A stretch of DNA of 48,243 nt from Nodularia spumigena CCY9414 (GTDB lineage Bacteria; Cyanobacteriota; Cyanobacteriia; Cyanobacteriales; Nostocaceae), in contig NZ_CP007203.1 of assembly GCF_000340565.2 (NCBI RefSeq), positions 1,306,029 to 1,354,271 of the forward strand, read 5' to 3'. Position 1 is the stretch's first letter, and each line of letters opens with the position of its first letter. Under the pieces are notes generated by a model. That model was not told the origin of the DNA, ran no database searches, and was given only the letters and a program-made list of their open reading frames with translations. Below, in pieces: positions 13,302-47,866 of the stretch. Made by a program: the position numbers and the translations under genes.

Positions 13302-15533
13302 TTATTCACCAATAATGCCACCGTCATCACGGGTAATGACCACAGTTGCCGAACGGGGGCGACCTTGGGGGCCATAACCTTGGCTGTGTGGCCAGTTACT
13401 TCTGCTGGTGGGATTAGCAACACTTCCGCGAGAACCTGGATGCTGAATGTTGATGAACATGGTTTTGTGATCAGGTGTAGTAATCACACCAGTTACTTCA
13501 CAGTCTGTGGGGCTGCTGAGGAAAAGTTTAATTTCTCTAGGATCATTAGGGTTGGCACAAACCATCGAGTTACTGCCAATGTTTCTTAAAGTACCTGTAC
13601 CAGTACCTGATTGGTCAGTTTGAATCCAGAGACGACCGTAGTAGTCGAACCAAAGACCATCTGGTGCAACGAAGTCGTGGTCGCCATTGATGTTGCCTTT
13701 ACGATTCGGGTCGTTGTCTTGTCTGTCGCCACACAAAACATAAATATCCCAACTGAAGGTGGTAGATGCAACGCTGCGTCCCGTTTCACGCCAACGAATG
13801 ATGTGACCGTAAATGTTGCTTTCTCTGGGGTTAGCAGCATCAACTGGAGGACGTGAACTACCTCCAGGGGTTGTACCATCTGGGTTATTAACGGAGGACG
13901 GAGTTGTTCCGCGACGAGAGTTGTTGGTCAACGCACAGTAAACTTCAACTTCATTGAATCCACCAATGCGGGGACGTTCAGCAATCCACTCTGGGCGGTC
14001 CATCATGGTTGCGCCAACTCTATCGGCAGCTTGTCTGGTTTTAATCAGAACTTCAGCTTGGCTATTAAATCCGTTAGCTGGAGTTAGTCCGCCCTGACCG
14101 TAGACTAAAGGAAGCCAATTGCCAGTACCATCATCGTTGAATTTAGCAACGTACAGCGTACCGTGGTCAAGCAGGTCACGGTTGGCACTACGAACATTGG
14201 GATTATATTGTCTAGAGCAAACGAACTTATAGATATACTCGTTTACGTTGTCGTCACCTGTATAGTAAGCCAGACGGTTGTTATCATCGACAACATATTG
14301 AGCGCTCTCGTGTCTGATGCGACCTAGAGAAGTACGCTTGACTGGTTTGCTGTTGGGATCATAAGGGTCAATTTCGACCATCCAACCAAACAAATGAGGT
14401 TCTAGGGGATTGTCAAAAGCATCAAAGCGTGGATCAACCACAGGCCAGCGATAACCGGATGATGTGGGGATACCGTAGCGTCTTTGTCCATTGACGATAT
14501 CAGCCTTTTTCCCTTCCAGACCTAGATTTGCCAGGACATCGTTATTTACATCGTCAGCTTGGTCGTTACTAAATGTCCGGTTGGCAAAATAACCTTGGAA
14601 GTTTTCTTCAGCAGTCAGGTAAGTACCCCAAGGTGTTATGCCGTGGGCGCAATTGTTTAACGTACCATAAGCTGTGTAGCCATCGTTGATACCAATTTCA
14701 AATGATCCATTAGGTTGAATGGAGAATTTCTTGGATTTCATCAACGCATCACCCGCAGCTGGCCCAGAAACTCGCATCTCTGTGTTACCAGTGATCCGGC
14801 GACCATAACGAGAATTGCGGTCAACACTCCAGCTCTTACCAGATCTGTCTATTGAAAATAATCCGCTCCACCCGAATTTGGATATCTCTACAACAGATAC
14901 ACCATGAGCAGCTTGAGTTTTCCTGGCTTTCTCAATTGTCATTTCGGCATCACTTGTGTTCCCAGTGGGATGAAGGAAGATTTCTTGGGTATATTCGTGG
15001 TTAACGCACAGCAGCCCCCGATTGTTATATGCGCGTCCTTCTACAGGTACTGGCAAACCTTTTGTCCGGTTGAGATAGCCGCTTCCTGGTAAAGGGAAGA
15101 AGTGCATCCCATCAGTATTCATCCCAAATTGCTTTTCTTGTGCCGCCGCATCCTGAGAAGCATCTGGTAACCAGTCTGGCGCACCAGGCATAATCGGATC
15201 ACCCCAAGCAACTAAGACTCTGGCTGTGTAACCTTTGGGAACGGTGACAAGATCCTTCTCTAATAGTCCTGTTGCTTCGTTGAGCAGATTTGGCTGAATG
15301 CTCTCGAAACCAATACCACCAAAACCAAGTCCGGCTGGAACTGGTGCTGCTTCTACAGTTTGGAGAAAACCACTGATGGCAATATCACTAAACACAGTTG
15401 CCGCAGTAGCTGCCGCCGTTGTCGTGATGAAACGTCTGCGCTTCATGCTGACGCGTCCAATCACGTCAAGGATTGACTCGTTACCGGATGGGTTAATAGT
15501 TACGTTATTTTTGGGGTGAAGATGACCTTTCAT
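13302..15533 (-). CDS. phoX: PhoX-type alkaline phosphatase, Tat-exported
   Basis: This 743-residue phosphatase belongs to the PhoX (DUF839) family, whose members use iron and calcium instead of zinc. The N-terminus carries a Tat signal: MKRRRFITTTAAATAATVF around residues 30-48, preceded by a 29-residue extension. Cleavage is likely after VEA near 62. Family landmarks include LLCVNHEYT, NNCAHGITPWGTYLTAEENF (with the conserved Cys and Glu ligands) and DGLWFDYYGRLWIQTD. Length and layout fit the family. Upstream at 15594 a MITE sits within the promoter region. A loose Pho-box-like sequence is seen near 15840-15866 on the minus strand. The start at 15533 follows the longest frame; M30 is possible but would leave a very short n-region. 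Confidence 0.9.
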   Translation of the reverse strand: MKGHLHPKNNVTINPSGNESILDVIGRVSMKRRRFITTTAAATAATVFSDIAISGFLQTVEAAPVPAGLGFGGIGFESIQPNLLNEATGLLEKDLVTVPKGYTARVLVAWGDPIMPGAPDWLPDASQDAAAQEKQFGMNTDGMHFFPLPGSGYLNRTKGLPVPVEGRAYNNRGLLCVNHEYTQEIFLHPTGNTSDAEMTIEKARKTQAAHGVSVVEISKFGWSGLFSIDRSGKSWSVDRNSRYGRRITGNTEMRVSGPAAGDALMKSKKFSIQPNGSFEIGINDGYTAYGTLNNCAHGITPWGTYLTAEENFQGYFANRTFSNDQADDVNNDVLANLGLEGKKADIVNGQRRYGIPTSSGYRWPVVDPRFDAFDNPLEPHLFGWMVEIDPYDPNSKPVKRTSLGRIRHESAQYVVDDNNRLAYYTGDDNVNEYIYKFVCSRQYNPNVRSANRDLLDHGTLYVAKFNDDGTGNWLPLVYGQGGLTPANGFNSQAEVLIKTRQAADRVGATMMDRPEWIAERPRIGGFNEVEVYCALTNNSRRGTTPSSVNNPDGTTPGGSSRPPVDAANPRESNIYGHIIRWRETGRSVASTTFSWDIYVLCGDRQDNDPNRKGNINGDHDFVAPDGLWFDYYGRLWIQTDQSGTGTGTLRNIGSNSMVCANPNDPREIKLFLSSPTDCEVTGVITTPDHKTMFINIQHPGSRGSVANPTSRSNWPHSQGYGPQGRPRSATVVITRDDGGIIGE

Positions 15534-34678: not shown

Positions 34679-35362
34679 TTACCCAATGGCTAGTTCTAGC
34701 AACCCAGGGGGGGGAGTAATTTCAATGCGACGGGATGGTAAATCTACCACAGGGGCGATCGCCTTAACAAAAGGTATCAAAAGTTTCTTCGGTGATTGCG
34801 GCTGTAATGTTTCTGACTCGACATCGGGAATTTGCTGATGCAATTTGACTTCCAATAAAAAATTACCAGCCGGAATGACATCTACCACCTCCCCCACAAG
34901 TTCCCCAGATTCCTGCATAAATACCAACATCCCGATCAAATCGGTGACATGATATTCATCTTCGCCTAATTGGGGGCGATCGCTTGCGGGAACCATCAAC
35001 TTATAATCGCGCAAAGCCTCAGCATCATTGCGATTTCTCACACCAGCCAAAGAAATTATACAAAGATTTTTCCCCTCCACATAACGTCCTGACAACAACT
35101 CCACAGGTTGTGGTTCCCTATCACCAGGATGCCATAACCAACGAGTTCCCGGAACCTCAAACCGCTCCGGAAAATCCGACTCCGGATAAACCCGCAACTC
35201 CCCAGACAAACCTTGAGGAGCGACAATCTTCCCAATTTCCAACCATTCATCAAGATTCGGGACTGGGTTGAGAAACTTCCCCCCTGCTCCCTGCGCCCTG
35301 CTCCCCTGCTTCTTCTTGGCGACCTTTGCGCCTTGGCGGTTCGTTTTCATAATCTTAAGCAC
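34679..35362 (-). CDS. rimM: Ribosome maturation factor RimM
   Basis: RimM helps mature the 16S rRNA head region by binding S19. The N-terminal RimM domain begins [22 protein letters not shown], and the PRC-barrel part contains [14 protein letters not shown] and [16 protein letters not shown]. The first 36 residues are unusual. [24 protein letters not shown] is encoded by a GAACCGCCAAGGCGCAAAGG-type repeat and the purine-rich GGGGAGCAGGG repeat, both found elsewhere between genes. No later start codon precedes the conserved domain, so the repeat-coded tail seems to be translated. Starts at 35362 or at M5 are possible. The start overlaps the avtA stop by 8 bases, suggesting avtA-rimM co-transcription. 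Confidence 0.93.
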
Positions 35363-36638
35363 TCACAACAGCACGCTGATAAACTCGTTCAGCCACTTGT
35401 GCCAAAAGTTGCATACCCGTGACAATTTCCGCATCACTACCAGTCAGACTAATGCGTAAACACTGATGCTTGTGCGGCCATTCTTCCCGCAAACCAGGGA
35501 AAAAGCTACTACCAGGAACAACAATCACACCCACTTGCTTTAATTCTTGGTAGAATTCCCAATCAGTGATGGGTAAATCCTGGAGCCACAACCAAGCAAA
35601 AATAGCACCTTCACCGCGATGGAGGAACCAAGGTAAATCCTTGGGCATTGCTGTATCTAAAGTATCTTCTAGCACAGCAAATTTTTTCTGGTAGAAGGGA
35701 CGAATCACTTCTTCAGCGATTTTAGCTAAAGCACCAGAATTAATAGCACTAGCGGCGATCGCTTGTCCATAGCGTGAAGGATGAATACACAAATTTGTCT
35801 GAAAGGACTCCAATGCTTGGATAATGCCTTCATCACCAATAGCGACACCGATACGTTCACCGGGTAATCCGGCTTTGGATAAACTCAGGCAGTGTAAAAT
35901 ATTCTCACCGAACACTGGTGTCATTTCTGTGAAATTCAAAGCTGGGAAAGGCGGCGCATAAGCCGAGTCAATCAACACAGGTACATCATGAGGTGCAGCC
36001 AAAGCCGCAATTTTTTTCACTTCATCGTCGCTGAGAACATTACCTGTGGGGTTACAGGGACGAGAGAAAAGGACACAACCCGTGCTTTCTGTAATTGATA
36101 GTTGGCTGAAGTCTGGACGATATTTAAACCTGTGAGCCGCAGCATCAATATCCAAAGTTGGTTTATAGGCTTTTAAGGCTTCTTGCTCTAAACAGACACC
36201 GCCATAACCCGTATAGTCGGGACTGAGAGGTAAAACGATTTGTTTGAGTTCACCGTTATTTGTGTATCCACCGAAGGCATTGGCAGCGTAGAAGTAAAGG
36301 CTTTGACTACCGGGTGTAATTAAGATATTGCGATCGCTCAAGTTTAAACCATAGCGCTTGTTGAAGTCATTGGCGATCGCCTCAATTAACGGAGCATAAC
36401 CCTGACTGGAACCGTAACGACAAACCACCTCACCGTATTCCGAACTAGCCAATAACTCCGCCGTACAGTCGCGCCATAACTGTTCCACCTCCGGCAAAAT
36501 CAACGGGTTCCCAGCGCTCAAATTCATAAATTCTTGCCCCGCCCCAGCTTTTAACGTTTCTACAATGTCCTTCATAATCGCTCTTACACCAGTCAGGTTA
36601 GACATTTGAGCGCCAATTTTCGTTAGGGCAGGGTTCAT
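35355..36638 (-). CDS. avtA: Valine-pyruvate aminotransferase (class I/II PLP enzyme)
   Basis: This PLP-dependent aminotransferase probably exchanges the amino group between valine or alanine and the keto acids. From ATG 36638 ([21 protein letters not shown]) the product is 427 residues. Landmarks are [27 protein letters not shown], the [12 protein letters not shown] motif, the D-x-AY cofactor aspartate region [11 protein letters not shown], the PLP lysine in [13 protein letters not shown], and the C-terminal arginine in LRISLTG. I moved the start 60 bases downstream of the longest frame because the extra 20 residues (MISSRQNFANFD) lack family character. rimM overlaps its 3' end. Confidence 0.88.
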
Positions 36639-37018
36639 AAGCTTTGTAACAATAAAGATAAGATCAAAGTTAGCAAAATTCTGGCGGCTTGATATCATTG
36701 TCCAGGTTTGCCGCCTGTAACTAATGTACCAATATCATCGGCAAAAGCAATTGGGCAATTTTCCTGGACGCAAGACCCCATACAAAATGTAGTGCAGTTT
36801 GGGGAATGAGCGATCGCAGTACTTTATCTACTCAAATTTGACTAATTCATCTATTGCAATTTATTTGTAGAGTTGAGCAACTGTTCGGTTTGCACCTACC
36901 AAGCTACCCAACTCAGTTTTATTTTCGGATATCGTCACCGACATCACAGGAACAGGTCTGGACTCTTCTTCGGCACGCTCGACGCATTCCCATACGCCGA
37001 CTCTGGCACAGAAGAGCG
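36639..37018. other. Intergenic between avtA and the DGR template
   Basis: It holds the presumed avtA promoter. On the minus strand, 36847-37018 lies downstream of the template repeat and stays open for about 55 codons in one frame without recognisable similarity. I do not call a gene. Confidence 0.4.
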
Positions 37019-37143
37019 CTCGCGGCGGAAACTACAACCCGAAAACCGATGTTGTTGTTCCTATTGTCCGGGTCGTTGTTGTTACGATACGCAGAACGGC
37101 AATTCCTCGGATTGTTGTTCCAGGAACCACCGCGCAGCAGCCG
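37019..37143 (-). other. DGR template repeat (TR)
   Basis: This 125-base repeat matches the variable repeat at 38739-38863 except at 12 positions. Every one of the 12 is an A in the template read on the minus strand. The template would encode a variable-site frame rich in AAC/AAT codons (SWNNNPRNC, then [13 protein letters not shown]), the usual trick that lets adenine changes reach many residues without stop codons. It begins 18 bases past the reverse transcriptase stop. Of 30 template adenines, 12 have changed; of the other 95 bases, none has. Confidence 0.97.
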
Positions 37144-37161
37144 GAAGTGCCTGCCCCTTCT

Positions 37162-38220
37162 TCACTCTCTCGTAAATACAAGAGATGCGAATATCTGTTG
37201 ACGTAATCGCCAAGTGTCCCCGTATGTAATGTGGGCTACCCAGCTTTCAATTGAACTATGTACGTCTTTAAACTCAATCTTACCTTGACTGTAGTCACTT
37301 TGCAGCTGTTTTAATCTTTGCCGTCCCCTTCGCAGATTCTCAGTTCGCACTCGGATTGTATCTGGTAGAATGCGAAATCCTAGAAAACTTGCTCCATGTC
37401 GAGTTTCAAATAATTGACTTTTTACTGGATGCAGTTTTAGCCTCAGATTGATCAAGTGTTCTTCTATGGCTAATTTTGCTGCTGCTAAAAATCCATAGTC
37501 ATCTGAAAACAAGGCAAAATCATCAACATAGCGGACATAATTCTGGGCTTTTATTTGCTCCTTGACAAAATGATCTAAATTATTCAGATAAACATTGGCG
37601 AAAAATTGACTGGTGAGATTGCCAATAGGTAATCCCTTGCGTCCTTGTAAGGGCGAAAGTAAATCATCCCCAGGAAAATAGTCAATTACAGATTCTTGAG
37701 GATTACTGCTATTAATAATAGTTTCTGCCAACCACAGAGTGTCTTGACATTTTAGTTTGCGGTGTAGCAGAGATTTGAGAATTTCGTGGTTAATACTGGG
37801 AAAATATTTTTTAATGTCGCACTGCAAAACATAGCGGTGAGAACGAGCAAAGGTAGTGAAGCGACGTAAAGCGCGGTGAGTCCCAAAACCCAACCGATTG
37901 GCATAAGAATCAGTAATAAAAGTTGGCTCGAAAATTGGCACTATAATATTGCATAGGGCATGATGCACTACTCTATCTCGGTAGGGTGCGGCAGAGATTA
38001 AACGATGCTTGGGTTCACAAATCTCAAAAGTTTTGTAGCGTCCTGGTTGATAAGTTTTTGACTCTAACTGAGTTTTAATTTTTGCCAGTTCAGCTTCCAA
38101 ATTATAGTTAAATTTTAAAATATTTTCTCGAAACCGCTTTCCTTTTTGTGCCTGACGTGCCGCTAATATTAAATTACTAAAATCTGTGATTTGAGGATAA
38201 AGATTGTTATATCGTTTCAT
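37162..38220 (-). CDS. DGR reverse transcriptase
   Basis: This 352-residue reverse transcriptase copies the template RNA with adenine-specific errors. Motif 3 is [11 protein letters not shown] (D135) and the catalytic YVDD is at 231-234. The motif-4 segment LPIGNLTSQ (197-205) has the I/L/V-G-x3-SQ form typical of DGR enzymes in place of the QG seen in most other reverse transcriptases. The thumb follows from about residue 260 ([15 protein letters not shown]). No maturase or endonuclease domain is present, which fits a DGR and not a group II intron. The ATG overlaps the avd stop (ATGA), so the two are co-translated. The template repeat lies just downstream. Confidence 0.96.
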
Positions 38221-38564
38221 TTCTTGGCCTTTTGGCGCTGTTGTTTAATCCAGCCCCCTAATTCATTGCCGATTTCATTTAGCAGTTGACCAACATATTC
38301 ATATCGTCGCTGATCAAATTCCCGAAAATCAAATAATAATCTGGTTTGATGACGCAGGATGTCTAATTTAGCATTTAATAGTTCTAGCTGAGTTAACTTT
38401 TCTTGGGCGTATCGTGCTAAAATAAGACCTTCGAGGAAGTCGTACAATCCTATGATCATCCTGTCCCCTAAAGTAAATTTATGTTTTTTGGGTAGACGAT
38501 TCAAAATTGGGACATACCATTTAATCAGGTCGTAGGTTTTTTGGACAATTGGTAAATCTGGCAT
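38217..38564 (-). CDS. avd: DGR accessory variability determinant (Avd)
   Basis: This 115-residue helical, basic protein has the Avd pattern: [19 protein letters not shown], then [18 protein letters not shown]. Avd forms a barrel-like pentamer of four-helix bundles, binds the reverse transcriptase and the template RNA, and is needed for mutagenic homing in the studied phage DGR. It lies between the target gene and the reverse transcriptase and overlaps the latter by 4 bases. The C-terminus is strongly basic (KQQRQKAKK). Confidence 0.92.
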
Positions 38565-38649
38565 TGGGTCAATGATAAATTTTTAGGCTACGAAAACATC
38601 TTGACAAAATTTACCACTTCTTGCATACTATAGATAGTCGTGCTAAATA

Positions 38650-38677
38650 TAAAAAAAATATCGGCCGCCTTCGGCGG
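38650..38677 (-). terminator. Terminator after the DGR target gene
   Basis: The GC-rich hairpin CCGCC-TTC-GGCGG (38665-38677) is followed on the minus strand by a T-rich run (ATATTTTTTTATATTT). It separates the target gene from avd and the reverse transcriptase, which then need their own promoter or read-through. Confidence 0.7.
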
Positions 38678-38703
38678 GGGGTTAGGGAAAAAGAAAAAGC
38701 GGA

Positions 38704-38741
38704 GAGGACTCAAGAGCAAGAGTGTAAAGAATTAAGTCCTC
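38704..38741 (-). other. Inverted repeat overlapping the 3' edge of the variable repeat
   Basis: GAGGACT (38704-38710) and AGTCCTC (38735-38741) are perfect inverted arms with a 24-base spacer. In the well-studied phage DGR a hairpin just past the variable repeat helps target recognition. The position fits, but the spacer is longer than in that case, so the role is uncertain. Confidence 0.4.
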
Positions 38742-40225
38742 GCGGCGGAAACTACAACCCGAAAACCGATGCCGTTGCTCCTATGGTCCGGGTCGAGGTT
38801 GAGACGATACGCAGAACGGCAATACCCCGGATTGAAGTTCCAGGAACCACCGCGCAGCAGCCGCGATTGATTATCATTATCATTATTCTTGGTTAGCCAA
38901 GCACTACCATTATTGGGTGCGCCTTTATAATTTTCATGCCAATGATCATAACACCATTCCCAAACATTACCGTGCATATCATATAATCCAAAGGCATTGG
39001 CTACATAGCTGCCTACTGGACTTGTCTGACCTACGGATTTACCTTTTGGCTCATCACCATAGGTAGTTTCAGCACTGTAATTTGCTAAATCCGATGTAAT
39101 AGTTTCGCCAAAGTGGAATGGAGTTGTCGTGCCTGCTCTACAAGCGTATTCCCATTCAGCCTCACTAGGCAATCGGTAGTCTTTTTTGGTGTGTGCTTTT
39201 AGTCTATCACAAAACTCCACCGCTTCATACCAAGAAATTTGTTCTACTGGTAAATTGTCACCTTTAAAATTCGATGGGTCAGGCTTCAGTTCCCTATTTA
39301 CTTGCGGGAGAGCGGCTACAGCCCGCCATTGTGCTTGAGTGATGGGGTATTTACCCATAAAGAATGGCGGAACTGTGACTTCATGCTGAGGTCTTTCGTC
39401 ATCATAACTTTGAGCTTCATTTTTTGGTGAACCCATGAAGAATTGACCACCGGGAATAGACACCATTTCTAAAGTGACATTATTCGGCAGGTGTTCGCTG
39501 AAATATTGGGCGGTTTTGGTTTCTGTCTTAATAATTTCTCCGCGACGGTTCACTGTAGGCGTTTGATATTCAAACACCATTGGACGAGGTGGAGGAATTT
39601 CACCTTTGAGCAACCTGCCAACTTCTTCAGCAAGTTCTCTTAATGAGTCATACTGACTTAACTGGGGTTGAAACTCTGTAATCAGACGCTGTAACCGGGC
39701 TAATTCTGCTTGTCCATTTTTTCCACCTTCAACTAATGCTTGTAACGCATTTCTTATTTCCTCTTCAGCTTGAGTGCGCTGTTCATCTAAATAAACCATT
39801 GCAGCCCATTGTTGCGCTTGCAATTGGTCTGGTTTATGGGGGTGAGTTCGCATTAAATAAGTTACATAGTCCAGCAATAATTGGGCTATAGACTTGAGAC
39901 GATTTCTGCCAAATTTATCCTGAAAAGGTTCTTGTGTAAATTTTGCTAATAAATTTGACCTGACAACCGGAGTCATGGCGTACAATTCATAACCCACTGG
40001 ACGACACAAATCCGACAACAGTAAATCTGCTTCTGCTATCCAAGGAACTTCTTCGTTGAGTAAAAATTGCACTCGGATATAATTGACCAATTCAGGAGTC
40101 AAGACCAAAGGTAAGGCGCAGTGAGCAGCTAAATATTCATAGGATGGCTCAAATCGTCCCACAAAGCGGTTAATTTGCTGCTCGGCTATTTCTTGAATTA
40201 ATTCATCAGATAAGGGAGTATTCAT
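38732..40225 (-). CDS. DGR target: FGE/sulfatase-modifying-type (C-type-lectin fold) protein with variable C-terminus
   Basis: In this 497-residue protein, residues 1-130 form a helical module (EIAEQQINRFVGRFEPSYEYLA) that I recall from cyanobacterial FGE-fold proteins. Residues 140-205 look coiled-coil. Residues about 250-495 form the formylglycine-generating-enzyme-like fold: VSIPGGQFFMGS, DERPQHEVTV, YRLPSEAEWEYACRAG, FGLYDMHGNVWEWCYD. The end, residues 455-496, is the variable repeat. Compared with the template, the changed residues are 464, 467, 468, 475, 477, 481, 483 and 485; six of these are Asn in the template frame turned into Phe, Leu, Leu, His, Ser and Gly, one is Arg to Gly, and one is Asn to Tyr. 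Such folds display variable residues on a ligand-binding face. An enzyme role is unlikely. No signal peptide is seen, so it should be cytoplasmic. Confidence 0.93.
   Translation of the reverse strand: MNTPLSDELIQEIAEQQINRFVGRFEPSYEYLAAHCALPLVLTPELVNYIRVQFLLNEEVPWIAEADLLLSDLCRPVGYELYAMTPVVRSNLLAKFTQEPFQDKFGRNRLKSIAQLLLDYVTYLMRTHPHKPDQLQAQQWAAMVYLDEQRTQAEEEIRNALQALVEGGKNGQAELARLQRLITEFQPQLSQYDSLRELAEEVGRLLKGEIPPPRPMVFEYQTPTVNRRGEIIKTETKTAQYFSEHLPNNVTLEMVSIPGGQFFMGSPKNEAQSYDDERPQHEVTVPPFFMGKYPITQAQWRAVAALPQVNRELKPDPSNFKGDNLPVEQISWYEAVEFCDRLKAHTKKDYRLPSEAEWEYACRAGTTTPFHFGETITSDLANYSAETTYGDEPKGKSVGQTSPVGSYVANAFGLYDMHGNVWEWCYDHWHENYKGAPNNGSAWLTKNNDNDNQSRLLRGGSWNFNPGYCRSAYRLNLDPDHRSNGIGFRVVVSAART
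38739..38863 (-). other. DGR variable repeat (VR)
   Basis: It is the 3' end of the target gene. In coding orientation it differs from the template as A to G (4), A to C (3) and A to T (5); all 12 changes sit at template adenines. The last ~35 bases, a GC-rich stretch ending CCGCCGCGAG, are unchanged, as expected for the initiation-of-homing part. Confidence 0.97.
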
Positions 40226-40319
40226 AGTTCGCCAAGATTGCCAGTACCAAAATCTTTAATTTTACCATCTGATTATCTATAATATAATTGAATTGTCGAT
40301 TGCTCTAATTATTGGCAAA

Positions 40320-40586
40320 ATGACCATGACGACTGTAACAAAGACTCAAAAAATATACGATGAGTTTATTGATTTTATCGCTCAAGGAACTAGCTCAGAA
40401 AGAGTGACCAAGTTTCAATTTTCTGAGGCGACGAAAGAACAGATAGTAGATTTAGTTGAACGCGCCAAAATAGGAGATTTATCTTCGTCTGAAAAAACTG
40501 AACTTGAGCAGTTTTTAGTGATAGAGCATCTGATCCGATTGGCAAAAGCTAAAGCTCATCAATACCTTAAATCAGTTTCTGACTAG
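40320..40586 (+). CDS. Small conserved cyanobacterial protein, unknown function
   Basis: The product is about 88 residues from ATG 40320 (a TTG at 40293 would add 9). It contains TQKIYDEFIDFIAQGTSSE and a KIGDLSSSEKTELEQFLVIEHL helix pair. It is all-helical and soluble, and I recall similar small proteins being common in cyanobacteria, sometimes next to toxin genes. No toxin follows here. It is divergent from the DGR target (starts about 95 bases apart), so the two could share a control region. Confidence 0.65.
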   Translation: MTMTTVTKTQKIYDEFIDFIAQGTSSERVTKFQFSEATKEQIVDLVERAKIGDLSSSEKTELEQFLVIEHLIRLAKAKAHQYLKSVSD

Positions 40587-41154
40587 AGAGATTAATTATG
40601 CTTTAAATAGGTAGGCGGAAAAATTTCAAGGTATGTCATTGCGAACGGAGCGTAGCGGAGTGAAGCAATCGCAAGGGTTTTGAGGTTTTTACTTTTAGTT
40701 ACATAGTTTTTATTTGTGCCTACCTACTTACAGTTTAATAATAGCGATCGCCTCATATCAAGTCCGCTTAATCACTTACGATATGTCATTGCGTTCGCGG
40801 AGCGTGGCGTTAGCCATGTGCAACGAAGTGAAACGAAGCAATCGCCTGGACTCTGCGATTACTTCACTTCGCTATCGCTACGTTCGTAATGACAAGTAAT
40901 TTGCCGGAAATGATATCATAGAAAGACAATTATTAATTGATGTCAATAGATACCCTTCACCTGAAGCTTTAAGAGACCTCCACAAAAAGAAATGCCCAAT
41001 TGTCATTGCGAATGGAGCGAAGCGAAATGAAGCAACCGCAAAATCTTGGGATTGCTTCGCTACACTCCGTTTCGCTCACAATGACAGCTTTTGGATCAAT
41101 CATTCTGTGGAGTTCTCTAAAACGAATGAAATGATGGTTGAGAAAATATCCTTT
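40587..41154. repeat. Intergenic with three TGTCATTGCG palindromic repeats
   Basis: Copies lie at 40634-40677 (half element), 40784-40894 and 41001-41086. The latter two are bounded by TGTCATTGCG and inverted AATGACA ends and can fold into long hairpins. Open frames through them are artefacts of repeated GCGAAGC/GAAGCAATCGC units. They separate the vWA operon from the small plus-strand gene. Confidence 0.75.
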
Positions 41155-42210
41155 TTAACGAATCTCGGCGATCGCCTGATTTAAGCCATGAGGATCAAGG
41201 GGATACATTGGTAATAAATTGGCGATAAATTGGGCTGTAGTTCCGCGCCAGCGTTCTGGGGGTATGGGATTTAACCAAGCGATTAACTTGGTATGTTGTT
41301 TAATTTGCCACAAAACTTCCGCCGTAGCTGAAAATCTTTGGGAACGGCGATCGCCTCTTGCTGCTCCCCCATCACTGACAATTAATATACTGGTATTGCC
41401 GTCACCAGCTGCTAAAGTTGACTCCAATAGAACTTTCTCTGTTAAATAGGGATCTCGATAGATATATTTTGCCGGTACATTGTGAAAATAACCAACCCGT
41501 ACCTGCTGGATATTACTTTCGTATTGGGCAGTTTGAACCAAATCCCGTGTAAAGTGGTGAAAAGGGGTCATTGAGCCTTCTTGATCGATTAATAACAGCA
41601 AATCAACGTGATTTCGTTCTCTGCGGCCATATTTTGGTGCTAAGAAAAATCCCTGTTCGCAGACTTGAGCGATGGTTGCGGCGACATCTAAAATATCCTC
41701 TCTACCATCCCCTACCATTCGCCGTAAATACCGCCAGCTATAGACCATATACCTGCGCGAAATGGGAGCATAAGTTTGGAAATCCCGATCCTCTGTTTGC
41801 TGTTCTAATAAACTAATGGGGGATTTGACGGGAAGTAAGGAAAACTCCGGTGTGGGAGTGGGAAAACTGTCTACAGTCGGATGTTGTTCTTCAGAGGATG
41901 GAGGGGAAGGATTGGAAGATGGAGTTGATTCTGAGGATGAATCTGGGTTATTTTCCCTTAATTCTTCCTTTTTTGGGGCTGCTTCAGCACTGATAGACCG
42001 AAAAACCACTTCTAACTGGTCTTGTTGTGCGAGAGAATGACACCAGAGGGATTTTAAAAGTTTTTTCAGTGCATTTGCATCTTCAGTTCCCCACCCGCCA
42101 TCAATAGCTTTTAGCGTCACTAAATATTCACTGACACCCAAAGCAAATCCATCCCGCCGCAAGCGGTAGAATAGGCGATCTAACAGAGGATAGGGGTTAA
42201 AGTCACTCAT
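41155..42210 (-). CDS. vWA-domain protein, partner of MoxR-type ATPase
   Basis: The 351-residue protein has an N-terminal helical part (residues 1-75, NPYPLLDRLFYRLRRDGFAL), a long Ser/Pro/Glu-rich linker (about 85-125), and a C-terminal von Willebrand A domain of CoxE-like type. The metal-ion site reads LLLIDQEGSM (D209, S213) with a later SDGGAARG loop. vWA proteins of this sort work with MoxR AAA+ ATPases to remodel or load partners. Its start overlaps the MoxR stop by 4 bases, so the two are made together. It is the last gene of the operon that starts at 45412. Confidence 0.85.
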   Translation of the reverse strand: MSDFNPYPLLDRLFYRLRRDGFALGVSEYLVTLKAIDGGWGTEDANALKKLLKSLWCHSLAQQDQLEVVFRSISAEAAPKKEELRENNPDSSSESTPSSNPSPPSSEEQHPTVDSFPTPTPEFSLLPVKSPISLLEQQTEDRDFQTYAPISRRYMVYSWRYLRRMVGDGREDILDVAATIAQVCEQGFFLAPKYGRRERNHVDLLLLIDQEGSMTPFHHFTRDLVQTAQYESNIQQVRVGYFHNVPAKYIYRDPYLTEKVLLESTLAAGDGNTSILIVSDGGAARGDRRSQRFSATAEVLWQIKQHTKLIAWLNPIPPERWRGTTAQFIANLLPMYPLDPHGLNQAIAEIR

Positions 42211-43172
42211 ACTGAGGGATAATTGGGATTTTGCCAGTCTTGTCGTAATTTAAAGAGTAAGTCTCGATAGGGAATTGTCTTTTCTTGCTGGAGTTGAGTT
42301 ACAGGATAGGGTTTTGGGGTAAAATGGTCTAAGGCAGCCAGCCAATCTAGAAATTCACTTGTACCAGGGAGCTTAAACAGGTTTTTATCTTCACGTATCT
42401 TTAAAAATTTGGCGATCGCTTCCTTGACTAAATCTGCTTTAGGTATGGTAGTTTTATCTACTTTCTGTTTTTGTGTATAGTGAGCATTAACAATCTTTTG
42501 TAACTCTTCTGGTTGATTCGGAAACCTGACATAATGATATAAACAGCGTCGTAAAAAGGGAGTGGGTAAGCTACCTTTTTCTTTATTACTGGTAATAATA
42601 ATAATTGGTAATTTTTCTGGATTAGCTTGGATTTCTTCTCCAGTTTCTCGAATAAAGAATTTCCAAGGCTTTTCTAATATTGAAAGTAAATCATTGGGAA
42701 AATCCACATCAGCCTTATCAATTTCATCAATCAACAAAACCGCCGGACATTCATGGGATTGAAAGGCTTTACCCAGAGAACCTAATTCGCGGTAATCTTT
42801 AGGTTCTTGAGGATTTCGAGGTTTTTTAGTTTGGGGATTAATTGATGGACTTAAATTTTGGGTTTGGACATCATGGAGGCGCAAAATTGCATCATATTCA
42901 TATAATCCCTCTTGAACTTTCGTAGTTGAGCGAATATCCCAGCGATAAAAGGGTAATCCTAATTCATAAGCGATGGCTACAGCTAATCGAGTTTTACCAC
43001 ATCCGGCTTCTCCTTCTATTAAAAGTGGTCTTTGTAGAAATATTGCTAAATTTACGGCTTCAATTAATGCGCTATCTGCAATATATGGTTCTAATTCTGT
43101 GGGGGAATCAGGATGAGGGTTTTTAGGTCGTGCTTTAGGGTCGCATTTGAAGGTGTATGGAGGAGGATTCAT
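42207..43172 (-). CDS. MoxR-type AAA+ ATPase
   Basis: The 321-residue ATPase has Walker A GEAGCGKT (residues 54-61), Walker B AVLLIDEIDKAD (144-155), sensor-1 segment IIIITSNKEKG, and an arginine-finger-like FLRRCLYHYVRFP. MoxR proteins act as chaperones for vWA partners. It overlaps the vWA gene and lies 3 bases after the STAND-like gene. In the published MoxR-vWA conflict systems the ATPase is proposed to license or restrain the effectors; here that is inferred from context. Confidence 0.92.
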   Translation of the reverse strand: MNPPPYTFKCDPKARPKNPHPDSPTELEPYIADSALIEAVNLAIFLQRPLLIEGEAGCGKTRLAVAIAYELGLPFYRWDIRSTTKVQEGLYEYDAILRLHDVQTQNLSPSINPQTKKPRNPQEPKDYRELGSLGKAFQSHECPAVLLIDEIDKADVDFPNDLLSILEKPWKFFIRETGEEIQANPEKLPIIIITSNKEKGSLPTPFLRRCLYHYVRFPNQPEELQKIVNAHYTQKQKVDKTTIPKADLVKEAIAKFLKIREDKNLFKLPGTSEFLDWLAALDHFTPKPYPVTQLQQEKTIPYRDLLFKLRQDWQNPNYPSV

Positions 43173-43175
43173 TAA

Positions 43176-44192
43176 TTATGCCTCTAGCAATTTATGTAAA
43201 TATTTTTCTAAATTTGAACAAACTGTAACGGGAATACCAGTATTAGATAATTTATAAATCCTTTTAGCTAGCTCTTCACTTTTGTTTATAGATAATCCAT
43301 ATACTTCTTGCAGCCAATCATCAATATTACCTTCAGTCCAGTTGTGCAACGGTAACTTTAGGATTTTTAGACTATCAAAATCCTCTGAATTATAACAATA
43401 ACTCAGATGACCATAAGATTCAGAAGCCATTGAACCTAGAGAAATAAACAAAATAAATTTCACGCAAGCATAATTCTTGGAAATCTCTTGATGTTTTTTG
43501 TTTAAGGGATGCCAAAAATACTGAATAAACCAAGATAAAAGTTTATCGTCATTTTCTAGAAGAGAATCCCAGTTGGTAAAATCAAAAAAAACAATACTGT
43601 TTCCCTGTACACTGGCACTGATTTGATCAATAATATTCTGAACGTATTTTTGGTCATTAGGATGGGATTCAACTGGCTTAAAATAATCCGCGATCGCATT
43701 TAGCAAGCTTCGCTCATCAGAAATATCCTTTCTTAATAAGGGGTCGATAGGACAATACTTAAATTTACCATAACTTTTGCTACTAAGAGAGTATTGAATC
43801 TCTGCGACGCATAAATCTCCTCGCATCAAGGAAGTATTTTGCAGTAGAAATAAAGCCGTTCCTCCTTGTTTACCCAAACGGTTTTCTAGTATATCATTGA
43901 CAGTTTTTTTGGGTTCACAAAAGTTAATTTTAGATAAATTTTGCGTAATAAGCTGTTGTTGATTTGGTATAACAGATAAATTACTTTGACTTTTTAATAA
44001 CTCAATTTCGTTGTCTACTTTTTTTAGGCGTTGTAAATATTCGTTAAATTGCCTATCTAAATTGCCCTTGTCAACCCAATTTGAACTGTAATTGTATTGT
44101 TTACAGATTGCTTCAATATCCTCTTCAATTACTTTTTTCCTTTCTTGCAGAAATTTTAGTTTAGTTTGAATAGAATCTGTCATTTTAATCAT
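43176..44192 (-). CDS. Predicted EAD-inactive-STAND-like protein
   Basis: In this 338-residue protein, residues about 13-66 (KFLQERKKVIEEDIEAICKQ, ending LKKVDNEIE) form a helical hairpin that closely matches the C-terminus of the neighbouring protease: 20 identical of 53 aligned residues. Such shared effector-associated domains (EADs) couple partners by like-with-like binding. The rest (about 95-338) looks like a P-loop STAND fold in which the nucleotide loop is degenerate (FLLQNTSLMRGDL at about 115-127, no GxxxxGKT). A later strand reads NSIVFFDF. This resembles the described inactive-STAND domains, but I cannot confirm the assignment without profile searches. It sits between the protease and MoxR genes with gaps of 9 and 3 bases. 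Confidence 0.65.
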   Translation of the reverse strand: MIKMTDSIQTKLKFLQERKKVIEEDIEAICKQYNYSSNWVDKGNLDRQFNEYLQRLKKVDNEIELLKSQSNLSVIPNQQQLITQNLSKINFCEPKKTVNDILENRLGKQGGTALFLLQNTSLMRGDLCVAEIQYSLSSKSYGKFKYCPIDPLLRKDISDERSLLNAIADYFKPVESHPNDQKYVQNIIDQISASVQGNSIVFFDFTNWDSLLENDDKLLSWFIQYFWHPLNKKHQEISKNYACVKFILFISLGSMASESYGHLSYCYNSEDFDSLKILKLPLHNWTEGNIDDWLQEVYGLSINKSEELAKRIYKLSNTGIPVTVCSNLEKYLHKLLEA

Positions 44193-44201
44193 TATATTTA
44201 T

Positions 44202-45068
44202 CTAAAAATCAGAAAGTTCTCGTTCAATCTTTTCAAGTTCTTCAAAATAGAAAGTAATTTGTCTTTCCAAATTCAAATAATTAGATAAATTGGGATCAAA
44301 ACTCATCTGCTTACTCACCGCTTCAATATTTTCCTCCAATTGTTGCTTCCGTTGTTCTAGAAACCTTCTCTTGGCTGGTAACAAAGCTGGCTTAACTGAC
44401 TTCTCTATGGGCTTACTTGTAATAACAACTGACTTCAAATATTGCCAAGCCTTGACTAAAGTTTGATTGGGAATCATAAAAGAGGCTCTTGCAGCTTCTC
44501 GCCTAGTATCTGCTGCAACTACCATCCCAACTACTCCCTGTAATTGTTCATCCCAAACCGGAGAACCACTAAATCCTTTAGCAATAGCGTATCCAGTCAC
44601 CTTAGTATCTTCCAGTTGTACCCATTGTTTAGCATTTTGATCTGATAATACCCCAGTTGCCCAAACTCCAAAAGCAACACCCTGGGGACAACCAAAAACT
44701 TTAAATGGATGCTTTGAGAGATTTTCTGATAAAATTAACTTAGTTACTTGGGCTTGAGAAGGTAAGTGTTCCAGCTTTAAAACAGCAATATCTTCAATTA
44801 ATACATCCGAATTTAAGTCAGATGTAGGATGCCAACAAACAACCGTCGCCTTAATTTTCTCAGTAGAATTAGCTAAGGGAAAATCAACCTGAATTTCTCC
44901 ATCAGGTATATTTGCTATCGAGCTAGAAATTAATAATGCCTCTCCCACGACATGAGCGCAAGTCAAAGCATACTTTTCTGCCACCAGAAAGCCAATACCA
45001 ACCACATCTTTCTGATAAAATATCCGAATAATTGAATTTTTATGACTATTAAAATCAATAGCATTCAT
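44202..45068 (-). CDS. Trypsin-like serine protease with C-terminal effector-associated helical domain
   Basis: The 288-residue cytoplasmic protease (no signal peptide) has catalytic His39 in ALTCAHVV, Asp93 in EDIAVLKL and Ser167 in KGFSGSPVW, so the triad is complete. Residues 235-288 (RFLEQRKQQLEENIEAVSKQ, ending LEKIERELSDF) form a helical hairpin shared with the next protein's N-terminus. In EAD-linked systems such proteases are proposed effectors or processing enzymes switched on by assembly. It starts one base into the Trypco1 stop (TAATG), so translation is coupled. Confidence 0.85.
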   Translation of the reverse strand: MNAIDFNSHKNSIIRIFYQKDVVGIGFLVAEKYALTCAHVVGEALLISSSIANIPDGEIQVDFPLANSTEKIKATVVCWHPTSDLNSDVLIEDIAVLKLEHLPSQAQVTKLILSENLSKHPFKVFGCPQGVAFGVWATGVLSDQNAKQWVQLEDTKVTGYAIAKGFSGSPVWDEQLQGVVGMVVAADTRREAARASFMIPNQTLVKAWQYLKSVVITSKPIEKSVKPALLPAKRRFLEQRKQQLEENIEAVSKQMSFDPNLSNYLNLERQITFYFEELEKIERELSDF

Positions 45069-45412
45069 TAACCATTACCCTGTCCTTTACTACTCCATTT
45101 CAAAGTAATTTCATAGCTAACTTCGCCCCCAACAGACGCAAAAATAGCTCCAGCATCCGCCGTTAACTTCAGACCAAATTTAACCTCTACCTCATCGGCG
45201 GGTTGGTTGAGGTCGCGTAATTTAGAGATAATAGTAGAAGCCACGGGTTTAATGTTCTCTAAGGCTTCTTCAAATGTCTGCTGCGCCTTGAGGACTTGTC
45301 TTCCTGATGGGAGAGCAACTCGCTCAATTCCACGACCTTCTGGTTCATCAACTTCCACCAGGAATTTAGTTCCATCTGCTAGGGAAAACTCAGCTATTTT
45401 TTTTTCTTTCAT
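45068..45412 (-). CDS. Trypsin-co-occurring domain protein (Trypco1/CU044_2847-like)
   Basis: The 114-residue protein has an N-terminal beta part (IAEFSLADGTKFLVEVDEPE), a helix (TFEEALENIKPVASTIISKLRDL) and a C-terminal strand pair (VEVKFGLKLTADAGAIFASVGG). This is the pattern of the CU044_2847 family, described as a trypsin-co-occurring domain because it is encoded next to trypsin-like proteases. It is the first gene of the five-gene operon. Its biochemical role is unknown; it may be a substrate, inhibitor or sensor for the protease. Confidence 0.75.
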   Translation of the reverse strand: MKEKKIAEFSLADGTKFLVEVDEPEGRGIERVALPSGRQVLKAQQTFEEALENIKPVASTIISKLRDLNQPADEVEVKFGLKLTADAGAIFASVGGEVSYEITLKWSSKGQGNG

Positions 45413-47044: not shown

Positions 47045-47866
47045 TCTGAACCTGATCTCAGAATATCAAAGCTTTGGTGGCAAACTCGGCTTTTACTGCT
47101 ATATAAAACCTAGACAAAACTAGACTTTACTTTCTACTTCAACGGGAGCATGGGAGCAGTTATCCCTCAGTAGACTTTCACGCCTTAGCCAGACGCGATT
47201 GTGTTCCAATTAAGTTTCTGAAAAAGACTACCACCATCATTGCTTGGTTTTCGCGTCGGCAATAGTCTCAATTCAATACTTGATATCACCGTATTATATA
47301 TCAAGTAGTTGATTTTTTCCTAAAATATATATTGATTTTTGTCAATATAAGTATAGTTTTGTCTATGAAATTGTCAACTTAGGACTTGCTCTCACCTTTC
47401 CTCCACCTGTAACGGTGAAATGCGCTTCGCCGTCTATCAACCACCACAAGCCACTCAACAGCCAGCACCTGTCCTCTATTTCCTTTCTGGCTTGACTTGT
47501 ACAGAAGAAAATTTTATGCTCAAGGCTGGGGCGCAACGCTACGCAGCTGAGTACGGCTTGATATTAGTCGCACCAGATACTAGCCCCCGCAACACAGGTA
47601 TTGTCGGTGAAGATGACGAATGGGATTTTGGTACAGGTGCGGGCTTTTATGTAGATGCTACCGAGAAACCTTGGCATCAGCATTACCAAATGTATAGTTA
47701 TATAGTCCAGGAATTACCTGCTCTAATTGCCGCAAAATTCCCCATACAACCGGATAAACAAGGTATTTTTGGTCATTCAATGGGCGGACATGGGGCGTTA
47801 GTATGTGCCATACGAAACCCGCAACTATATAAATCAGTCTTTGCATTTAATCTCATAAAATTGTAG
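47037..47866 (+). pseudogene. fghA: S-formylglutathione hydrolase, disrupted twice
   Basis: The true N-terminus lies at 47037: MTNLNLISEYQSFGGKLGFY. It is then cut by the ~293-bp element. Removing 293 bases (47098-47390 or an equivalent placement) rejoins FY directly to [19 protein letters not shown] and restores the frame. The following part holds [13 protein letters not shown] and the nucleophile serine in [10 protein letters not shown]. After LYKSVFAF (about 47848) the match ends and five foreign residues (NLIKL) precede a stop, where the IscB element begins. The catalytic Asp and His expected in the missing C-terminal ~130 residues are lost, so no active hydrolase can be made from this locus. 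Another start at ATG 47420 gives a 148-residue fragment only. Confidence 0.93.
47096..47392 (+). mobile_element. ~293-bp non-coding mobile element, copy 2, inside fghA
   Basis: It is identical to 2304-2600 (inverted) except at one base. TAGACAAAACTA (47111-47122) and TAGTTTTGTCTA (47354-47365) are perfect 12-bp subterminal inverted repeats. Hairpins lie at 47277-47307 (10-bp stem) and 47328-47349 (8-bp stem). Two interleaved pairings, GACGCGA/TCGCGTC (47192-47198 with 47251-47257) and AGACTA/TAGTCT (47225-47230 with 47263-47268), could form a pseudoknot. Both insertion sites read CTCT after removal. Either no target duplication or a 2-base CT duplication fits. Confidence 0.9.

Follow-up and report, generated by a model that had tools for sequence, protein, structure and literature searches.

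Two diversity-generating retroelements (DGRs) have been reported from the cyanobacterium Nodularia spumigena CCY9414 (Voss et al. 2013, PMC3610870): DGR1, with the reverse transcriptase (RT) gene nsp38130 and the target gene nsp38150, and DGR2, with the RT gene nsp13150, the two RTs being 70% identical. In the present study we analysed a 48,243-nt stretch of the genome of this strain (contig NZ_CP007203.1, positions 1,306,029 to 1,354,271; hereafter the window), which carries one complete DGR. Two full DGR RTs, 71% identical, were found in the genome, and the order of the gene numbers (PMC3610870) places DGR2 in the window. We infer that the element analysed here is DGR2, so that it has already been named in print.

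DGRs with related gene neighbourhoods have been described in other cyanobacteria. Those of clade 5E are accompanied by genes for MoxR, a peptidase, an adapter and vWA, and antigen sensing has been proposed for them (Dore et al. 2024, PMC10907252), while the target of the Nostoc punctiforme DGR, in which adenine mutation was seen in culture, is co-expressed with MoxR and vWA genes (mBio 2025, PMC12691664). In the inactive STAND (iSTAND) conflict systems the vWA protein is of the CoxE type, EADs are carried by the iSTAND component, and FGS is the commonest effector (approximately 22%; Kaur et al. 2020, PMC7159879); a minority of systems carry linker and effector as a gene of their own beside the vWA gene (Kaur et al. 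2021, PMC8195603). The FGS domain occupies the effector position of both VMAP and iSTAND systems, and approximately 80% of the cyanobacterial and gammaproteobacterial VMAP systems are DGR-linked (PMC7159879, PMC8195603). In the DGR of phage BPP-1, the spacer below the template repeat (TR) folds, recruits RT and Avd, and primes cDNA synthesis (PMC12875486). Finally, DGR sites with past activity and no RT gene are known from Nanoarchaeota; whether these are fossils or are diversified remotely was left open (Paul et al. 2015, PMC4372165).

The window element has an adenine-only record of differences between its TR and its variable repeat (VR), and lies beside genes of an iSTAND system. We regard it as highly probable that this DGR has kept copying its template, with random changes at adenines, into the C-terminal lectin-like tip of its target protein. 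The repeats were recovered by a repeat search of the window at 90% identity. When they are compared on the coding (minus) strand, 12 of the 125 positions show a difference, and every one of these is a template adenine (12 of 30 A, 0 of 95 other bases), which has a hypergeometric probability of 4.9e-9. The changes lead from A to T (5), G (4) and C (3), and fall on first (7) and second (5) but never third codon positions. The VR comprises codons 455–495 of the 497-aa target (Table 1), and the changed residues are 464, 467, 468, 475, 477, 481, 483 and 485.

The RT, Avd and target genes are all open frames, each with a match to its own Pfam family (for Avd, 66 bits against a bAvd cut-off of 40). 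The RT contains YVDD at residue 231 and IGNLTSQ at residue 199, the latter conforming to [IVL]GxxxSQ, the motif of DGR-type RTs; in PADLOC it matched generic RT and DRT models, by which no system is defined. The AlphaFold model of the target (pLDDT 83.9, pTM 0.57, 49 sequences) shows a helical N-terminal part and an FGE-type domain, with residues 463–486 forming coil, a short helix and a short strand. In a Foldseek search with this model, PvdO (5hha) took first place and TvpA (2y3c), the variable protein of a DGR, third place, in agreement with a sequence search using the target. An adenine-only TR/VR record, the RT motif, Avd, and a target with a 3'-end VR and a C-type-lectin-type fold are thus found together, and the cassette is a complete DGR. 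The original prediction, made from the letters of the window alone, had described 125-bp repeats differing only at 12 template adenines, an intact Avd, an RT with an IGxxxSQ motif, an FGE/C-type-lectin-fold target and eight changed residues; the base counts proved exact, the genes are open as described, and codon comparison returned precisely the same residues. A candidate FGE-like gene at 35355–36698 was rejected, being an aminotransferase according to Pfam.

The best database match of the target is a protein of N. spumigena CS-584. Of the 497 residues, 10 are not the same in the two proteins, and each of these belongs to a VR codon containing a template A; all ten lie within the 17 VR codons whose first or second base is A (P = 8e-17 under an even spread), and all 41 VR codons of CS-584 are reachable from the window TR through A changes alone. 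Since the target of this sister strain differs only at template-A codons, the DGR very likely went on rewriting it, and rewriting in the recent history of the lineage is well supported by these comparisons. The expectation that relatives would vary at template-A sites only was therefore borne out at the protein level for CS-584 (10 of 10). As for the earlier statement that the system is probably active, the part concerning recent lineage history now has the adenine-only record and CS-584 behind it, whereas activity at the present day is something we infer.

TR/VR pairs were looked for in 37 of the 44 loci fetched from relatives (L079 to L085, distant or partial, were omitted); 26 loci gave pairs and 11 none. 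After paralogous gene stretches and local repeats had been removed by eye from the matches, the 32 pairs from these 26 loci contained, with their flanks, 499 mismatches at A as against 48 elsewhere. Comparison of the bases just beyond the repeats, in rows that are not independent (the window TR was counted three times, some loci twice, and one of three L066 VRs was omitted), revealed G at +1 in 30 of 34 and A at +2 in all 34 VR rows; in the TR rows, +1 is C, T or A in 32 of 34 cases, and +3/+4 read CT in all 34. This difference is a candidate for the distinction between IMH and IMH* (IMH, initiation of mutagenic homing), a difference known from BPP-1. Further downstream, at +48 to +88, 27 of 36 VRs are followed by a GC-rich stem of 5–7 bp closed by a loop of 3–4 nt. 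The hairpin was rejected as proof of a target-site cruciform, as the other nine VRs have none and a terminator would look the same.

Table 1. Features of the DGR, its neighbourhood and related elements (window positions unless a locus or contig is given).
Feature	Position	Strand	Basis
Template repeat (TR), 125 bp, 30 A	37019..37143	-	repeat search, base-by-base comparison
Structured RNA element, 150 nt, abutting the TR (first base = last TR base)	36870..37019	-	covariation; Rfam RT-14
DGR-type RT, 352 aa	37162..38220	-	Pfam RVT_1, E 9.1e-22
Avd accessory protein, 115 aa	38217..38564	-	Pfam bAvd, E 4.9e-18
GC-rich hairpin 62 nt beyond VR, cruciform-like element or terminator	38665..38677	-	sequence
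Target, helical N-terminal part and FGE/C-type-lectin-type domain, 497 aa	38732..40225	-	Pfam FGE-sulfatase, E 7.1e-60
GACT immediately beyond VR (CGCT beyond TR), candidate VR/TR discrimination mark	38735..38738	-	flank comparison
Variable repeat (VR), 3' end of target	38739..38863	-	repeat search, TR comparison
vWA protein (VWA_CoxE), DQEGS replacing the DxSxS pattern	41155..42210	-	Pfam, motif scan
MoxR-like AAA ATPase, Walker A GEAGCGKT, Walker B VLLIDE	42207..43172	-	Pfam AAA, AAA_5; motifs
EAD9 and inactive STAND (iSTAND)	43176..44192	-	Pfam: EAD9 at 8-65, iSTAND at 89-250
Trypsin-like peptidase and EAD9	44202..45068	-	Pfam
Trypco1 protein	45068..45412	-	Pfam
Window copy of multi-copy element, 260-base core at 100%	47131-47390	-	
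Multi-copy element, insert interrupting the DGR1 TR	L015:8506-8801 (genome C1:3867005-3867300)		
Two near-identical RT-less cassettes of target and TR	L014:8825-10245 and L013:7545-9790		

The RNA element was analysed in a sequence-only alignment of 29 members: the window, DGR1, an RT-less copy at 5.05 Mb (see below), and those 26 of the 44 fetched loci that had given TR/VR pairs. The RNAalifold fold has 41 pairs, with 96.6% of cells paired and changes on both sides in 31 pairs; none of 500 shuffles reached any of five measures, and the fold slid by 1 to 3 columns left at most 45.1% paired, in a test biased in favour of the fold, which was derived from the tested sequences themselves. The window element matches Rfam family RF02921 (RT-14) over its full length with 45.8 bits (E 6.7e-5), and the L042 element matches it with E 1.6e-4, both under the gathering score of 48.1, which none of eight DGR loci reached; the L054 element gave no match up to E 1. 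Among the papers listed in literature searches on RT-14 and on DGR RNA, none was seen to tie the two together.

Searches with the RNA model revealed three full elements in the CCY9414 genome (window, DGR1, 5.05 Mb) besides one in degenerate form, and a match in 81 of 145 genomes of the family. Matches of at least 100 bits numbered 105, in 67 genomes: 49 follow an RT of at least 300 aa, 5 a shorter RT, and 51 have no DGR RT within 2.5 kb. The element in turn accompanies 49 of the 51 RT matches of at least 300 aa, mostly approximately 150 nt below. At 19 loci with the element and no full RT adjoining, the fold is kept (93.5% paired over the 20 matches counted, in an alignment fitted to the RNA model). 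By analogy with BPP-1, the 150-nt element would act as part of the template RNA.

The window TR has nine matching places in the genome, itself among them. One lies in a TIR-FGE gene (C1:474922-476289; Pfam TIR_2 and FGE), 868 kb from the TR, whose VR differs from it at 12 core positions, all A, with two more mismatches just beyond the repeat. The closest relatives of this gene, P0122 (N. spumigena) and P0121, differ from it in 12 and 13 of 40 VR codons and, outside the VR, at 20 of 415 (plus 11 gap columns) and 23 of 415 positions, respectively; every VR residue of both is reachable from the window TR. More distant relatives have three (P0123, P0124) or eight (P0131) unreachable VR residues. 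These comparisons suggest that the window TR has probably rewritten this remote gene as well. The gene is followed by a truncated Avd-like frame, which matches the first 73 of 107 profile positions only, and it may therefore once have had a DGR of its own.

A TIR/SEFIR-FGE gene at C1:5414219 was counted apart: it carries a frame-shifting 5-nt deletion and differs from the TR by 15 mismatches at A and five elsewhere, two at each alignment end and one at the gap. The VR-like gene at C1:1768854 was rejected as a target of the window TR, since 18 of its mismatches lie outside A as against 17 at A; its fit to other templates is no better (orphan TR, 18 at A and 38 elsewhere; left half of the DGR1 TR, 8 and 7). 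A zinc-ribbon-like FGE gene (L012:9824-10912, minus strand) has a VR-like 3' end matching none of the compared TRs, and its template may have been lost.

At 5.05 Mb and 5.39 Mb of C1, the genome contains a near-identical pair of targets, each with its own TR and without an RT. The copy at 5.39 Mb has its target fused to a protein kinase (kinase-FGE), the end of its TR is cut short, and the RNA tail is missing there. Over the approximately 1,276 bp shared by the two copies, 21 VR sites differ, all 21 at template A, and the part outside the VR (approximately 1.2 kb) has two substitutions and one indel. The TR at 5.05 Mb shows 14 differences at A from the VR of either copy, and two mismatches beyond the repeat. 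Because near-identical RT-less copies differ in the VR at template A only, remote diversification is favoured. The copy at 5.05 Mb is immediately preceded by a run of 60 N, so that the assembly of this part calls for caution. Among the papers listed in a literature search on orphan and multiple-template DGRs, no account of RT-less cassettes in cyanobacteria was seen.

The relatives of the kinase-FGE protein show a similar pattern. P0221 differs from it in 11 of 38 VR codons and 1 of 605 other residues, and all the changes are reachable. Ten relatives were compared, of which eight have no unreachable residues, P0229 has six, and P0231 ends before the VR. Nine of the ten pairs among P0224 to P0228 differ at 8 to 12 VR residues and at 0 or 1 elsewhere, and the tenth pair has identical VRs. 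P0221 and P0222 have one common VR, but 13 residues near the N-terminus are different, a pattern beyond what rewriting alone explains.

Upstream of the window target, on the same strand, lie in order the genes for the Trypco1, trypsin-EAD9, iSTAND-EAD9, MoxR and vWA proteins, with gaps of -4 to 9 bases (the MoxR and vWA genes overlap by 4 bases). MoxR and vWA occur together with an inactive STAND component that has an N-terminal EAD, as in iSTAND systems, and a motif scan of the iSTAND-EAD9 protein found no P-loop pattern G....GK[ST]. The target thus adjoins genes of an iSTAND ternary conflict system. A VMAP ternary system, which would contain a protein with a VMAP-C domain, was rejected, as the Pfam matches of 10 window proteins include no VMAP family. 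The separate neighbour of vWA, the target itself, joins a helical N-terminal part, a candidate counterpart of the published linker, to the FGE domain. The trypsin-EAD9 protein matches LmuA in PADLOC (E 2.3e-10), which defines no system. By analogy with the published systems, a role in defence may be predicted, with the target as a putative immune-sensor protein. Among the 37 loci of relatives searched, 26 extend at least 6 kb above the RT, and all 26 have Avd and a match to the FGE target; the conflict-system genes are more variable than this DGR core, and the gene set most like that of the window was found in Nostoc linckia (L048). The region 40293-41086 contains repeated, partly inverted sequences and a 97-aa plus-strand open reading frame (ORF) without a Pfam match. 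Elsewhere in the window there are two neighbouring minus-strand alkaline phosphatase genes of different families (9710-11827 and 13302-15533; Alk_phosphatase and PhoX).

We propose that the TR and the 150-nt element, whose fold is supported by covariation, form a template RNA that would be transcribed, bound by RT and Avd, and used for priming as in phage BPP-1. Reverse transcription would randomise the adenines, as the outcome suggests (all 12 changes are at A and lead to any of T, G and C), and the cDNA would replace the VR, which may be told from the TR by GACT as against CGCT beyond the repeat. The variable tip of the target could then bind invader molecules and signal via MoxR and vWA to the EAD9-linked protease, in line with published proposals, and the same template has probably also rewritten the TIR-FGE gene.

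Several observations weigh against this interpretation. The strain test covers a single strain, at the protein level; the vWA protein is without the canonical pattern of the metal-ion-dependent adhesion site; a gap of 929 bp, with a plus-strand ORF and repeats, separates the vWA gene from the target; and the hairpin beyond the VR is missing at both trans VRs of the window TR. Moreover, among the same 26 relatives, matches to the window proteins were found for MoxR in 11, vWA in 4, and trypsin and Trypco1 in 1 each; with only 11 and 4 of 26 matching MoxR and vWA, the association of the RT with the ternary system is not fixed. It could also be argued that the DGR is a relic, which at one time rewrote its target but has since fallen silent, its RT and TR persisting by chance. 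DGR loss is common in Nodularia, since the other genomes searched (G040, G080, G103, G117) show no full DGR RT, G080 retaining a fragment, and the DGR1 TR of CCY9414 is itself interrupted. However, the RT, Avd, TR, VR and RNA element of the window are intact, the TR and VR have no mismatch outside A, the CS-584 target differs from that of CCY9414 in the VR only, and the two RT-less copies have become different at 21 template-A sites but hardly at all elsewhere, all of which makes a relic improbable. We consider it extremely improbable that the differences stem from another process, such as deamination of bases, gene conversion among paralogs, or ordinary point mutations under diversifying selection. 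The genome does hold several related FGE genes able to recombine, and recombination could have left the P0221/P0222 pattern of one VR with 13 differences elsewhere. Deamination, however, would yield one transition, whereas the adenines changed to all three other bases; non-A positions show no differences, and RT and Avd adjoin the repeats.

The remaining alternatives concern parts of the proposed scheme. That the 150-nt element is merely a terminator or 3' untranslated region, outside the template RNA, would suit the 51 of 105 strong matches without a DGR RT nearby, but seems very doubtful given its presence at nearly all long RTs, its direct contact with the TR, the covariation of 31 of 41 pairs and its position relative to the TR, which is that of the folded BPP-1 spacer (PMC12875486). 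Rewriting of the TIR-FGE gene by a former TR of its own, for which the truncated Avd-like frame could speak, is rather unlikely: the VR of this gene suits the window TR as it stands today, all 12 core differences being at A, and the genome search gave no nearer TR. A stronger competitor is the view that the target is not a sensor but the effector of the ternary system, as the effector position of FGS in VMAP and iSTAND systems suggests (Kaur et al., PMC7159879, PMC8195603), or a regulator, in keeping with the regulatory tuning proposed by Vallota-Eastman et al. This is a real possibility, although a randomised tip on a conserved scaffold would fit recognition better than a fixed action, and we somewhat prefer the sensor.

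On a wider scale, it seems reasonably probable that the Nodularia DGR acts as a genome-wide writing network, in which one or two RTs would serve several templates known by their portable 150-nt tail, modules of target, template and tail without an RT would spread and be diversified in trans, and TIR-, kinase- and ternary-system receptors would form a distributed, continually rewritten immune-type repertoire in each strain. Among 20 tail loci examined, seven consist of target, TR and tail; four have neither target nor TR, one has an RT fragment without a target, and one is the degenerate copy of the CCY9414 genome. In the other seven (L121, L127, L130, L132, L134, L135, L138), the 3' end of an FGE gene abuts the RNA tail without a TR of its own, a layout such as a deletion merging VR and TR would leave. 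This breakdown of the 20 loci argues against a network, as do the mismatches of the seven target-TR-tail pairs (88 at A and 51 elsewhere, flanks included), several of which are partly decayed since so many mismatches fall outside A. A further point against it is that 28 genomes have a strong tail, no nearby RT, and no RT of at least 300 aa among the matches listed, although some of the assemblies are drafts.

The insert interrupting the DGR1 TR is a multi-copy element. The two halves of this TR have 12 and 6 mismatches at A to the DGR1 VR, and 2 and 2 elsewhere, at the ends. The 260-base core of the insert was found at 100% identity in at least 40 places in the genome (best 40 of 128 candidates). 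In eight loci compared and in the window copy, the element spans GAGCAAGTCC to TATATAGCAG; GAG precedes each copy compared, and no target duplication was seen. Voss et al. 2013 (PMC3610870) reported a strong start site 199 nt downstream of the DGR1 RT stop and "70 copies of the DGR1 ncRNA". Measured from that stop, the start site falls within the insert, so that start site and copies most probably belong to the inserted element instead of a DGR RNA that spreads; the "70 copies" are most likely the repeat inserted in the DGR1 TR.

With these data, a one-line annotation of DGR2 becomes a testable system, and the published claim of a 70-copy DGR RNA is likely corrected. The trans target and the RT-less cassettes bear on the question, open in 2015, of whether the RNA tail suffices to recruit a distant RT; together with the common RNA tail, they are the results most worth specialist attention. 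Judging from the differences between strains, a bloom-forming cyanobacterium seems to rewrite several sensor-like proteins over the time in which its strains diverge, a matter relevant to adaptive-type immunity in multicellular bacteria.

The window element belongs to a kind already known, and what is new is the strain comparison, the iSTAND context, the trans target, the RNA element, the RT-less cassettes and the probable explanation of the DGR1 ncRNA copies as an inserted repeat. It agrees with DGR2 of Voss et al. (PMC3610870) in the number of RTs in the genome and in their identity (70–71%); the passages of that paper available to us name only the RT, to which the present study adds the TR, VR, target, operon, RNA element and trans target. 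The RNA element resembles RT-14 (RF02921) in its full-length match, but lies below the score required for membership of that family. The RT-less cassettes are like the Nanoarchaeota fragments (PMC4372165) in being sites with a history of DGR activity and no RT gene, and differ in that two near-identical copies diverge in the VR at template-A sites only. As in the N. punctiforme DGR (PMC12691664), DGR targets lie beside MoxR and vWA; mutation was seen there in culture, whereas the evidence for the window comes from strains, paralogs and a trans target. The likeness to the clade 5E DGRs (PMC10907252), i.e. a DGR beside MoxR, peptidase, adapter and vWA-type genes, is one of gene content, and vWA and target are separate genes in the window, unlike in that clade. 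MoxR, a CoxE-type vWA, EAD-iSTAND, EAD-trypsin and a putative FGS effector are shared with the iSTAND systems of Kaur et al. (PMC7159879, PMC8195603); unlike in the available parts of those reports, which give no DGR figure for iSTAND systems, the effector-type protein of the window is written by a DGR.

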